Assembly: GCA_023539445.1 (NCBI GenBank)
Contig: JAKCEW010000006.1
Coordinates: 1-46,034, forward strand
Direction: 5' to 3'
Origin: Candidatus Terraquivivens yellowstonensis
GTDB lineage: Archaea > Thermoproteota > Nitrososphaeria_A > Caldarchaeales > Wolframiiraptoraceae
Length of the DNA: 46,034 nucleotides
Shown here piece after piece: positions 5,452-21,228 of this stretch (the stretch's first letter is position 1; each line of letters starts with the position of its first letter). The translations under genes were made by a program, and so were the position numbers. The notes under the pieces were generated by a model, which did not search any database, was not told where the DNA came from, and was given only the letters and a program-made list of their open reading frames with translations.

Positions 5452-6648
5452 TTGAACGGACTCAAAAATTTAACAACCAATGATTTAGAGGAGTCTTCTG
5501 TACTTCTACTCGCAACCCTTGTCGTATTTCTTATCGGCTTCTGGCTTCACATGCCTTACAGCGGTGGCCATATTTACAGCGACATAGTCTCAGTATACCA
5601 AGCTAGGTTAGGAGGTTTTCCACCAAAGGCACCATATGCTGAGGCCTTCTTTGAATACCCGGTAATAGTTGCAGCATTGGCCTATGCGTCTGGCCTCATG
5701 GCAAGCCTTTTAACCAAAGAATACTATACGGCCCTATTCCTTTACTACATAATCACCTCGGCGGTCTTGTTTTTCGCAACATTCTTAACGATATTGGAGC
5801 TTGTAAAGTTGTGTGACATATGTGGTATTAAGAAAAAAAGGATATATGCGTACTTTATAATCACGCCAAGCTTGCTTTTCATGAACCTCCTCAACTGGTA
5901 CATCTTAGGGGTCTACTTCATGGTAAGGGCAATCAGGTTATCCATCGAGGATAGACCCGTACATTCTGGCACCTTCTTCGGGTTATCGGCCGCGTCGAAC
6001 TTTATAACGGCCATCCCCTCGATCGCTGTATTGATAACGTATGGTGATTTCAAAAGAAAGATGAAGTTCGCTATCATGGGTCTTACAGCCTATTTTCTCA
6101 TAAACCTCCCAGCCATCCTATCGAATCCGGGCAATTGGTTAAGGTTTTGGGAATATCACGCCTCATGGTATGTGGAATGTAACTGGCAGATACTGTTGTT
6201 TGACATGTTTGATCCAAATGCTAGAATGCTCTCTGCAGCGTTGATGTCTATACTAATTATTCTACCGTTGATCGTGTTGCGTAAAACCTCGCTCCAAAAT
6301 CACATTAAAATTCTGTTAGCATCTTGGTTAGTTATAGCTTGGTTCCTGTTTGCCAACTATGTCTACACACCTCAGATGAACATGATGCTACTCCCTTTCT
6401 TTACGCTTCTGAGCATAGCACCGTACCCGCTCTTTATGCTCTTTGATACTTTGAACTCTGCGATAATTGTTGTAGGGTTTTCGGGTTTCATACAGAAGGT
6501 ACTGGGCATAAAATACACGGTCGAGCCTTGGGGTATAAACTCGCCCATACAATGGATAGCTATTGCTAGATCCTTCCTCCTTCTAGCGTTCGCCCTCTAT
6601 TCGCTGTACGCAACTTTCAGGAAATCATCTAGTAATCTCGTAGCGTGA
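5452..6648 (+). CDS. GT-C type membrane glycosyltransferase (GT87/DUF2029-like)
   Basis: A 398-residue protein with about ten membrane helices. The first outer loop after helix 1 contains YSDIVSVYQ and the segment EYPVIVAALAY, both usual in polyprenol-phosphate-dependent mannosyltransferases of the GT87/DUF2029 type, where a loop Asp is catalytic. It probably adds sugar to a lipid or glycoprotein on the outer face. The start is TTG 5452, twelve bases after AAAGGAG. The gene converges on tyrS with a 24-base overlap. The sugar and acceptor are unknown. Confidence 0.65.
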   Translation: MNGLKNLTTNDLEESSVLLLATLVVFLIGFWLHMPYSGGHIYSDIVSVYQARLGGFPPKAPYAEAFFEYPVIVAALAYASGLMASLLTKEYYTALFLYYIITSAVLFFATFLTILELVKLCDICGIKKKRIYAYFIITPSLLFMNLLNWYILGVYFMVRAIRLSIEDRPVHSGTFFGLSAASNFITAIPSIAVLITYGDFKRKMKFAIMGLTAYFLINLPAILSNPGNWLRFWEYHASWYVECNWQILLFDMFDPNARMLSAALMSILIILPLIVLRKTSLQNHIKILLASWLVIAWFLFANYVYTPQMNMMLLPFFTLLSIAPYPLFMLFDTLNSAIIVVGFSGFIQKVLGIKYTVEPWGINSPIQWIAIARSFLLLAFALYSLYATFRKSSSNLVA

Positions 6649-7746
6649 GATTGTTTCAAAAAGCTCCTTGGCCCTCTTGTTGGTTTCAAAGTAAGTCCTT
6701 ATCGGCTCAAGTATCTTGTCAAGCGCTACCACGACCGCCCTCTTTAAGTCCAAAGGATGTATACGGCCGAGCTCGTAATCCTTCCTAAGGTGCTCAAAAT
6801 CTTCATACAGCACATCCCCGCCATACTTTTGCGGCCTCTCTATGTATAGCTTCCCGAGTTTCGGGAAGATTATGTACTTACAGTACTCTATTATTGGGTT
6901 AGATTTTGTGTCCCTCGGCGGACAGTAAGCCTTCATTATCTTTTCCTCCAAAACTTCCCTACTATCGTGCACGTATATGCTGGTTTCTGGCACGCTCTTG
7001 CTCATCTTCGAGCTTATTTGTACGTCTATCTCAGAATCATCGTCTAGACCCTTTGCTCCCACGGGTCCTGTTAAGCCCATTAGCATATGATGGTGGACCG
7101 CTACGGGCTTTGGAAATCCGAGCTTTGGAGCGATCTCTCTTGCAAGCATGTTGGCCCTTCTCTGATCAAGGCCAAGCTGGCATATATCAACCCCAAGATA
7201 GAATATGTCAGCAACCTGCATGGCTGGATAGAAGAGTTGGGCAGCCTCTTGGAGTTCACCCTCTTGTCTACCCATTATCGGAAGACATCTAAGGAATCTC
7301 TTGAGCGTAGCCTCTTTCGCCACACTTATAACAAGTTTCCAGTATTCTTTATCGGCCGCTACGTCGTTGGCCCAAACGATCTCTACTTTGTTGATGTCTA
7401 TACCCGAGGCTTTCCAAACCTCGATGAGGTATTCGCCGACCTTTCTTATCTTCTCTAGGTCACCGCCCATCTTCTTGTTTACCATCGCATGCCAGTCGGC
7501 AAGCAACAGCTTGAACCTGCAACCAGCATCCAACATATCCTTCAGCTTTATTGCCCTGAGTACTGCGAAAGGTATATGGGCAAAACCGCTCGGCTCGAAC
7601 CCATCATAGGCGACTGGTCTTTCGTTCGTCTCAAGTAGTTGCCTAAGTTCCTGAAGCGTTATAACCTCCTCGGTCGGCACCCTAGTGATCAGCTCCATCC
7701 TCGTTTCGACGTCCAAATCAACCCCTTCCCTTCTAAGCCTACGCAC
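6625..7746 (-). CDS. tyrS: Tyrosyl-tRNA synthetase (archaeal type)
   Basis: A class I synthetase that charges tRNA-Tyr. The HIGH-equivalent is SGFAHIP at 53-59 and the KMSKS loop is intact at 247-251. Tyrosine-pocket features include AYDGFEPSG near 46, YPAMQVADI near 173 and DQRRANM near 194. The length of 373 is slightly long because the listed GTG (7746) adds ten residues. Family members usually begin near VETRMELITR, so TTG at 7716 with AAGGGG upstream is an alternative. A TATA box TTTAAATATT at about 7761-7770 would start transcription near 7742, favouring a nearly leaderless mRNA. Confidence 0.95.
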   Translation of the reverse strand: MRRLRREGVDLDVETRMELITRVPTEEVITLQELRQLLETNERPVAYDGFEPSGFAHIPFAVLRAIKLKDMLDAGCRFKLLLADWHAMVNKKMGGDLEKIRKVGEYLIEVWKASGIDINKVEIVWANDVAADKEYWKLVISVAKEATLKRFLRCLPIMGRQEGELQEAAQLFYPAMQVADIFYLGVDICQLGLDQRRANMLAREIAPKLGFPKPVAVHHHMLMGLTGPVGAKGLDDDSEIDVQISSKMSKSVPETSIYVHDSREVLEEKIMKAYCPPRDTKSNPIIEYCKYIIFPKLGKLYIERPQKYGGDVLYEDFEHLRKDYELGRIHPLDLKRAVVVALDKILEPIRTYFETNKRAKELFETISRYEITR

Positions 7747-7785
7747 CTACCTACTGTGTGAATATTTAAAAATACTGCATCGGTT

Positions 7786-7864
7786 TTGCCCCACCACGAA
7801 CACCGCACCTCATAGACCAGGGCGGCAACCCTTTCTCGGTGCGGCTCAAGGTATGGTGGGGCAA
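7786..7864 (-). ncRNA. Structured RNA candidate between pheT and tyrS (H/ACA-like rod)
   Basis: An 11-bp perfect outer stem (7786-7796 with 7854-7864) encloses an asymmetric internal loop (9 and 6 bases), a perfect 7-bp stem (7803-7809 with 7838-7844), and a capped hairpin AGGG-CGGCAA-CCCT. Read on the minus strand, the base of the apical part has tandem G-A pairs with a 3-base UAU bulge, like a kink-turn. The internal loop top lies 16 bases from an AAA trinucleotide. This is the layout of archaeal H/ACA guide RNAs, though AAA is a weak ACA box. The plus strand instead has a true ACA but no kink-turn. It could also be a leader or terminator. Confidence 0.4.
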
Positions 7865-7897
7865 CAATAAAATCGTCAGACGTGCTTAAAACCATTA

Positions 7898-9571
7898 TCA
7901 TAATTTATTGAGCAAACTGCGAACTTTCTGCAGCTGTATCTCGACCGCGCTCACAGGCATCGTTATGCCGAAAGCCTCTAAGACCTCTGGACTTATCTCG
8001 CCCATTATTCCTATTTTAACGCCATTTACCTCCAACTCTGCGACCCTTCCCTCAATGAAGCTAACATGCTCTACCTCTTTCAAATTCCACTCCTTTAGGC
8101 CGAGGTTTCTCAGGAACTCCTCCGTAACTGACTTAACCTCCGAGAATGATGTATCTGCATAGGAGCTTACGAATGCTAGCCTAGTCTCCCTCCTAACACC
8201 TTCATCGGAAGATTCATCGATCACCAAGACATCGCCTATCTCAAAAAGTCTCTGCGGGTAAGGATTGTGTTTATTCATGGTCAAGTTGTAAAGTAGGCTT
8301 GGAAGTAGCCAAGTCCTGAGTATGTCGTACTCAGCCGAGACCGGGTTAAGAATCCTTACAGGGTTCTGCGGCTCAACTTTCATCCAACGATAGTCTCTCG
8401 TACTGTTGGAGAGCGTGAAGTTTACGACCTCCGTAAAGCCTAGGCCAAACATTATTTCCCTGCATACGTCCTCGAAGTTCGTGCTAGGATGAAGTTTACC
8501 GAAGCCCAACGTCCTAGGGACGATCGGTTGTAGGTTCTCATACCCAAGACCTATGGCTATCTCTTCAACTAGGTCAACCGGATGCATGATGTCAAGTCGA
8601 TATGCAGGCACCTCAGCGAATATCATGTCGCCTTTTGTCCTCTTAACACCAATCCTTGACCTTCTCAACGCTCTTACGGCCTCCTTCATGGATAAGTTCA
8701 AACCAAGTAAATCGTTGGCATAGCTTAGTTTAAGCTTCCAAGTCTTCGCCCTCAGGTCTGGTGTCGTCATTTTCATGCCGTTATAGACTATTCTAACCTG
8801 TCTGATTCTTCCGCCGATGTCGGCCAGCGCTGTCGTCAGTATATTCAAGGCACCGCTTACGGCCTCCAAGTCCGTACCTGTCACGTCTATGAAGAGCGTC
8901 TCCGTACCTTCCGTCAGCTCCGTCAGGGCTGCGTTTATTATCGGCGGTAGCGAAAGCACCTCGCCGCGCGAATCCATGATAACAGGGAACAGTCCAGTTC
9001 CGGCTACTATGTGGCCATACTTACGGCCAACCTCATGCTCTTTGATTATCTCCTGCGGCGTCATTCTCCTAAAGCTCTTGAGGGGCACAAAGCTTATTTC
9101 ATCGCCCTTTACTGCCTTGTAGATTATCGGCGGTTTTATGGCTCTTGCGTTATGTAAGCCTATGGCCACCTTCCTCCTGTTCCTTCCTACAACCCAGTGC
9201 AGGTCCTCCTGCATAGCTATCAGTTCCTCGATCTCCTCCGCCGAGAGGTTAAGACCTTCGACATAAGCGGCCACAACCCAAGGTCTAACCGTTTTAACAC
9301 TCTTATCGACCTTTAAGAAAGTCTTGGGAGGGAGTACGCGAAACCTAGGAATGCCAGTTTCTATTCCGAGAATGCCCCTGAGCGCCCTAGCAAGGCCTGC
9401 AGGGCTGGAAAAATCCGGTCTGTTTGGGTTGTACTCTACCTTAACGTAGTCCGCACCCAACTCCTCGATAGCTACACCAATGCCCGTTAGGGCACCAATC
9501 AGTTCATCCTTTTCAAGCTTTTGGCCTAGTATCTTGAAAAACCTTTCCAGTTTTAAGTTAAGTATCGGCAT
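7898..9571 (-). CDS. pheT: Phenylalanyl-tRNA synthetase beta subunit
   Basis: The non-catalytic partner of PheS in the (alpha-beta)2 PheRS; it edits mischarged Tyr and binds tRNA. At 557 residues it is the short archaeal/eukaryal form, lacking bacterial B2 and anticodon-binding extensions. Visible regions are the N-terminal domain beginning MPILNLKLERFFKILG, the B3/B4 editing domain (about 95-245; VVGRNRRKVAIGLHN, GTETLFIDVTGTD), the B5 domain (about 265-335), and the synthetase-like core (about 355-550; HPTNF-type HPSTNFEDV, NPVSAEYDILRTWLLPSLL). ATG 9571 is followed by no better start. pheS lies 2.4 kb away with two genes between. Confidence 0.96.
   Translation of the reverse strand: MPILNLKLERFFKILGQKLEKDELIGALTGIGVAIEELGADYVKVEYNPNRPDFSSPAGLARALRGILGIETGIPRFRVLPPKTFLKVDKSVKTVRPWVVAAYVEGLNLSAEEIEELIAMQEDLHWVVGRNRRKVAIGLHNARAIKPPIIYKAVKGDEISFVPLKSFRRMTPQEIIKEHEVGRKYGHIVAGTGLFPVIMDSRGEVLSLPPIINAALTELTEGTETLFIDVTGTDLEAVSGALNILTTALADIGGRIRQVRIVYNGMKMTTPDLRAKTWKLKLSYANDLLGLNLSMKEAVRALRRSRIGVKRTKGDMIFAEVPAYRLDIMHPVDLVEEIAIGLGYENLQPIVPRTLGFGKLHPSTNFEDVCREIMFGLGFTEVVNFTLSNSTRDYRWMKVEPQNPVRILNPVSAEYDILRTWLLPSLLYNLTMNKHNPYPQRLFEIGDVLVIDESSDEGVRRETRLAFVSSYADTSFSEVKSVTEEFLRNLGLKEWNLKEVEHVSFIEGRVAELEVNGVKIGIMGEISPEVLEAFGITMPVSAVEIQLQKVRSLLNKL

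Positions 9572-18008: not shown

Positions 18009-21228
<3,220 letters not shown>

Follow-up and report, generated by a model that had tools for sequence, protein, structure and literature searches.

The minus strand of the gap between pheT and tyrS in an uncultured hot-spring archaeon, Candidatus Terraquivivens (Aigarchaeota/Caldarchaeales), carries what is almost certainly the gene of a canonical archaeal box H/ACA sRNA. It lies at positions 7864-7785 of the window, by which we mean the whole 46,034-nucleotide stretch of DNA that was analysed; the window is contig C10 of its genome (G000), and the genus is assigned from the sequences most closely related to tyrS and to the RNA locus. Taken as a whole, the evidence makes it highly probable that this gene yields a single-hairpin H/ACA sRNA from its own promoter and that the RNA guides modification of 23S rRNA at helix 69/71. 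Guide RNAs of uncultured archaea with assigned targets are few.

Structure of the H/ACA RNA

The minus-strand sequence at 7864-7784 is UUGCCCCACCAUACCUUGAGCCGCACCGAGAAAGGGUUGCCGCCCUGGUCUAUGAGGUGCGGUGUUCGUGGUGGGGCAAAA. Between 7786 and 7864 this strand folds with -44.5 kcal/mol, compared with a mean of -27.8 for shuffled sequences (z = -5.0; 0 of 200 shuffles as good), and the plus strand folds less well (z = -3.9). The nested perfect stems described in an earlier, sequence-only reading are both present in the fold, the outer one with 11 bp (UUGCCCCACCA/UGGUGGGGCAA) and the inner one with 7 bp (CCGCACC/GGUGCGG, closing pair G.U), and so are its tandem G-A pairs with a three-base bulge. The parts of the RNA, its neighbours and its predicted target are collected in Table 1.

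Table 1 Features of the guide RNA locus and of its predicted 23S rRNA target (window positions).
Feature	Position	Strand	Sequence and remarks
pheT, upstream neighbour	7898..9571	-	ORF; adjoins the RNA in most relatives
Putative TATA box of the RNA gene	7885..7891	-	TTTTAAG; ~26 nt upstream of the RNA in 6/6 Terraquivivens genomes
H/ACA guide RNA gene (almost certain)	7785..7864	-	Ends approximate; fold, covariance-model match 7784-7864 in G000, orthologs in the order, covariation
Lower stem, 5' strand	7854..7862	-	GCCCCACCA; partner 7788-7796
5' guide	7846..7853	-	UACCUUGA (plus G7845); with G7845 complementary to mature 23S CUUAAGGUA
GA stem, 5' strand	7838..7845	-	GCCGCACC; partner 7802-7809
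Kink-turn with apical stem and loop	7810..7837	-	GA 7837-7836, UAU bulge 7814-7812, GA 7811-7810
GA stem, 3' strand	7802..7809	-	GGUGCGGU; covariation
3' guide	7797..7801	-	GUUCG; GU(U/C)NG in nearly all Caldarchaeales orthologs
Lower stem, 3' strand	7788..7796	-	UGGUGGGGC; covariation
ANA box	7785..7787	-	AAA in the window; directly 3' of the 9-bp lower stem
Putative TATA box of tyrS, downstream of the RNA	7761..7774	-	TATTTTTAAATATT; kept in the genus
tyrS, downstream neighbour	6625..7746	-	ORF; conserved start probably ATG near 7698
Predicted target, 23S exon 1	20060..20072	+	CUGACUCUCUUAA; U1921 = 20065, U1923 = 20067 (E. coli numbering)
23S intron within the predicted target	20073..20223	+	151 nt; absent from 23S of G001 and G005
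Predicted target continued, 23S exon 2	20224..20230	+	GGUAGCC; splice site CUUAA^GGUAGCC

Structurally, the RNA follows the '10/5/9' geometry, consisting of a 9-bp lower stem, the pocket, a 10-bp GA stem, the kink-turn and the ANA box. This is the productive fold defined from Pyrococcus, and 10/6/9 forms a further productive class (PMC4652768); many relatives carry a 6-nt 3' guide and thus have the 10/6/9 form. The lower stem lies within the 7-9 bp typical of archaeal H/ACA RNAs. The pocket strand that forms the 3' guide, typically 5-6 nt, is 5 nt long in 12 of the 28 orthologs and 6 nt long in 14. The GA stem of the window copy is composed of eight pairs, closing G.U included, and two G-A pairs, and it ends in the kink-turn; nearly all orthologs share this composition. 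An ANA triplet had been placed 16 bases from the pocket. The triplet stands, and the distance is corrected to 14 nt from the pocket-closing pair, within the usual 14-15 nt.

The genome encodes both Cbf5 and Nop10. The geometry, the kink-turn, the ANA box, the covariation and the conserved position described below and the presence of these two proteins together strongly support the proposal, made from the sequence alone, of an H/ACA guide RNA on the minus strand. The cbf5 match is itself split in two, about 20 nt apart (G000:C8:85387-86357; L283, L284). Introns are known in archaeal cbf5, and the split is possibly such an intron or else a frameshift.

No Rfam family (release 15) reaches its gathering score at this locus. 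The sole signal, GlsR14, would make the RNA a box C/D RNA; at 19.7 bits against a cut-off of 90 it was rejected. The RNA family is thus positionally conserved yet missing from Rfam. We found no earlier report of the family or its target in literature whose coverage stops short of key crenarchaeal H/ACA work, and a Sulfolobus member may already be known.

Conservation and covariation

By DNA search the RNA turns up in each of the five other Terraquivivens genomes and also, in another family, in archaeon HR01; it is always in the gap between pheT and tyrS. A covariance model built from those seven sequences (R1; six Terraquivivens and archaeon HR01) detects an ortholog in 21 of 44 genomes from the order, never more than one in each. 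A second model (R2) matches 29 of 41 genomes of the order at E < 1e-8 and 101 of 398 Thermoproteota genomes. In L095 and L091, matches on the opposite strand reflect the same hairpin in antisense and were left out. A weaker match of 28.5 bits with H/ACA geometry occurs in Odinarchaeia (L057, 6167-6244), and its homology is uncertain.

The covariation proposed as a check is present. Across 28 orthologs and 17 pairs, 97.3% of cells are paired, and both sides change in 13 of the 17 pairs; none of 500 shuffles pairs as well as the real alignment, and slid controls are 41-60% paired. Double changes occur in seven of nine pairs of the lower stem (99.6% of cells paired) and in six of eight pairs of the GA stem (94.6%). 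A model of this very structure produced the alignment, which is therefore biased towards it; a separate, segment-wise alignment gives the same counts. The G-A pairs of the kink-turn read GA/GA in 22 orthologs and GA/GG in four. The ANA box is ACA in 16, AAA in six and AUA in five, the remaining one being an ACA shifted by 1 nt.

Since the structure is conserved with compensatory changes, the hairpin is far more than a product of chance. GC-rich stems within an AT-rich spacer could suggest a fortuitously stable hairpin or a repeat, but set against the covariation, the kink-turn, the ANA box and a position conserved across the phylum, that explanation has a negligible probability. Outside Caldarchaeales, an outer stem of about 7-18 bp encloses the hairpin (L246, L249, L253, L255, L234, L243); it is perhaps a processing stem, and it is absent in Terraquivivens.

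Genomic context and promoters

Outside Caldarchaeales, 22 of the 37 loci that were read, from 14 further Thermoproteota families, adjoin pheT and/or tyrS. The orientation of the neighbours varies among relatives. In part of the order (L013, L026, L030, L102 and L108), tyrS is on the other strand and convergent with the RNA, and pheT, where found, stays on the upstream side of the RNA; L250 and L262 have both genes on the strand opposite the RNA.

The sequence-only reading had located the RNA just upstream of the tyrS TATA box, and this is borne out by the box on the minus strand at about 7774-7761, directly downstream of the RNA. In Terraquivivens this TATTTTTAAATA box, between the RNA and tyrS, is separate from the TTTTAAG box of the RNA. 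The same reading had suggested a terminator or leader of the synthetase genes, and a cis-acting leader, attenuator or terminator would suit an RNA placed between pheT and tyrS and sharing their strand. Such a role is nevertheless very improbable, as the RNA has its own TATA box, lies upstream of that of tyrS, persists in relatives with opposite-strand genes, and conserves its guide strands and ANA box. Because of its own putative TATA box, the separate tyrS box downstream and the opposite-strand tyrS, or both genes, in relatives, the RNA is best regarded as a gene in its own right.

Predicted target in helix 69 of 23S rRNA

Helix 69 of 23S rRNA is a key contact between the ribosome halves (intersubunit bridge). 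It is very likely the target of the RNA family and, with less assurance, probably the target of the window copy as well. The first lead is L030, a tyrS-adjacent ortholog, whose guides pair with CUGACUC-UC-UUAAGGUA in helix 69/71 by 7+8 bp around U1923, the numbering being transferred from E. coli by a helix 69 alignment and the pairing scored without L030's own 23S. The best candidate across lineages is the 23S helix 69/71 site CUGAC-UCU-CUUAAGGUA. When five Caldarchaeales lineages are scored on their own 23S, CUGAC-UCU-CUUAAGG reaches -16.4, compared with -9.1 for the next site. Permuted guides do as well in 2 of 1000 cases (five lineages) or 4 of 1000 (seven) at a spacing of 2-3 nt, the 3-nt spacer having been allowed post hoc, after inspection of the data; restricted to a 2-nt spacer, the Caldarchaeales test yields no significant site (217 of 1000).

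The guides of distant relatives, outside Caldarchaeales, combine ..AGA with GU(U/C)AG and form their duplexes on either side of U1921, leaving the standard 2-nt spacer. At this spacing, each of the seven guides examined (six from outside Caldarchaeales and that of G026) has the U1921 site as its best match in the 23S of its own organism, and a joint permutation test of the seven finds 9 of 2000 as good. G026 shares the 3' guide GUUCG with the window, and its 5' duplex is weak. Ten further 23S genes were read, and all have an almost identical helix 69 as far as the intron sites. In G000, an intron interrupts the target, and therefore only spliced rRNA can pair. Other Caldarchaeales have 23S introns either at this site or behind CUCUC, 4 nt further upstream.

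In the window, the 5' guide with G7845 pairs with 23S CUUAAGGUA over 9 bp, including one G.U. The 3' guide GUUCG pairs with CUGAC save for one C x U1917 mismatch, and the duplexes stand 3 nt apart, not 2; an unpaired third residue in the target counts as an anomaly, as does a weak duplex on the 5' side (PMC4652768). The target score of the window RNA alone is no better than that of shuffled guides (116 of 200 as good), so the assignment for this copy rests on orthology.

A genuine H/ACA sRNA could instead have, in Terraquivivens, another rRNA site, a tRNA or an mRNA as its target, or its guide function could have decayed. The mismatch and the off-register pairing, the non-significant single-genome test and a Wolframiiraptor guide that departs from helix 69 all lend this some weight. 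On the other side, helix 69 outranks every other rRNA site in each of the three Terraquivivens genomes tested once a spacing of 3-4 nt is permitted, the 5' guide is complementary to it over its 9 bp, and no convincing canonical match appears at other 16S/23S or tRNA sites. A scan of 16S and 23S at strict spacing gives nothing for the window RNA, and tRNA and pre-tRNA targets give nothing convincing at canonical spacing. The target originally proposed, CGAACA-UN-CUCAAGG, is absent from 16S and 23S rRNA and does not rise above the control level genus-wide, where counts for CGAACTNTYAAGG resemble those of the reversed-pattern control; a related site is found in helix 69/71 instead. We regard a different target or decay as possible and clearly the less probable reading, and retain helix 69 as the preferred target.

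Two further 23S sites were considered and rejected. GGC-UU-CCAAGG, at about base 470 of the gene, is not kept in HR01. CCGAC-UG-UUUAAUA comes second best, and is not significant as the best strict-spacing site.

Proposed mechanism and register shift

We postulate that the single-hairpin box H/ACA sRNA is made from its own promoter on the minus strand between pheT and tyrS. L7Ae would bind the kink-turn, and Cbf5-Nop10-Gar1 would bind the stem and the ANA box. The pocket would then pair with spliced 23S rRNA at helix 69/71, allowing Cbf5 to convert a uridine to pseudouridine. This uridine is predicted to be U1921 in the wider family, and U1921 or U1923 in most Caldarchaeales, including the window, where the register has slipped.

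In most Caldarchaeales, roughly two bases have been lost from the stem-proximal end of the 5' guide, judged against the distant family. This loss moves the 5' guide to the U1923 register, while the 3' guide remains in that of U1921. For the organism of the window, the modified base would accordingly be either of these two. The Wolframiiraptor-type RNA has a 5' guide, CGUUUGG, that is unfit for helix 69 and a 3' guide, GUCGG, that fits (L103, L104, L106, L108, L109); its target may have changed.

As a tentative history, which we hold to be less likely than not, an H/ACA guide gene may already have been next to pheT and tyrS when the Thermoproteota began to radiate and may have kept that place, and it is possibly linked to the tyrS-adjacent H/ACA gene of Nanoarchaeum. 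It would originally have guided Psi1921, and in Caldarchaeales it would be caught shifting by 2 nt to U1923, with both strands shifted in L030 and the change half done in Terraquivivens and Caldarchaeum. The family shows, via intermediate steps, how a small slip could retarget a guide RNA. The helix 69 assignment predicts pseudouridine at U1921/U1923 of 23S rRNA across much of Thermoproteota, which can be checked in cultivated carriers of orthologs.

Comparison with known guide RNAs

The H/ACA sRNAs of Pyrococcus and Archaeoglobus share with the window RNA the 9-bp lower stem, the 5-6 nt 3' guide, the 10-bp GA stem, the kink-turn and an ANA box 14-15 nt from the pocket (PMC4652768). Their targets differ, and the window RNA matches no Rfam family. 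Within Thermoproteota, RNA-Seq has identified two H/ACA sRNAs in S. acidocaldarius (PMC5539422), and the Sulfolobus RNA Sso1 is the H/ACA sRNA for Psi35 of tRNA-Tyr (PMC4652768). Sso1, compared here by description, has the same 10/5/9 form and is linked to tyrosine decoding. An Sso1-type role was rejected for our family, as the tRNA scan shows no such site and the first base of the 3' guide, G, faces G34 beside U35, with which it cannot pair.

A positional parallel is an H/ACA sRNA of Nanoarchaeum equitans, seen by RNA-Seq in the spacer beside tyrS with a box A upstream (PMC3491384). It is 159 nt long with two hairpins, in contrast to the single hairpin of the window. By target region, a parallel is Haloferax Hvo2, which acts on helix 69, guiding sites L1956/L1958, and one published model of it has an extra unpaired target residue (PMC4652768); its uridines differ from those predicted for the window RNA. 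Yeast 25S rRNA carries Psi2264 and Psi2266 in helix 69, guided by snR3 and snR84 (PMC8307265), and from the equivalence of 2258/2260 with 1915/1917 we infer that these correspond to U1921/U1923. The yeast guides are eukaryotic snoRNAs and share with the archaeal family the predicted equivalent uridines. In the tentative history of a register shift, the old and the new site, U1921 and U1923, would be the two additional uridines of helix 69 for which yeast employs a guide each.
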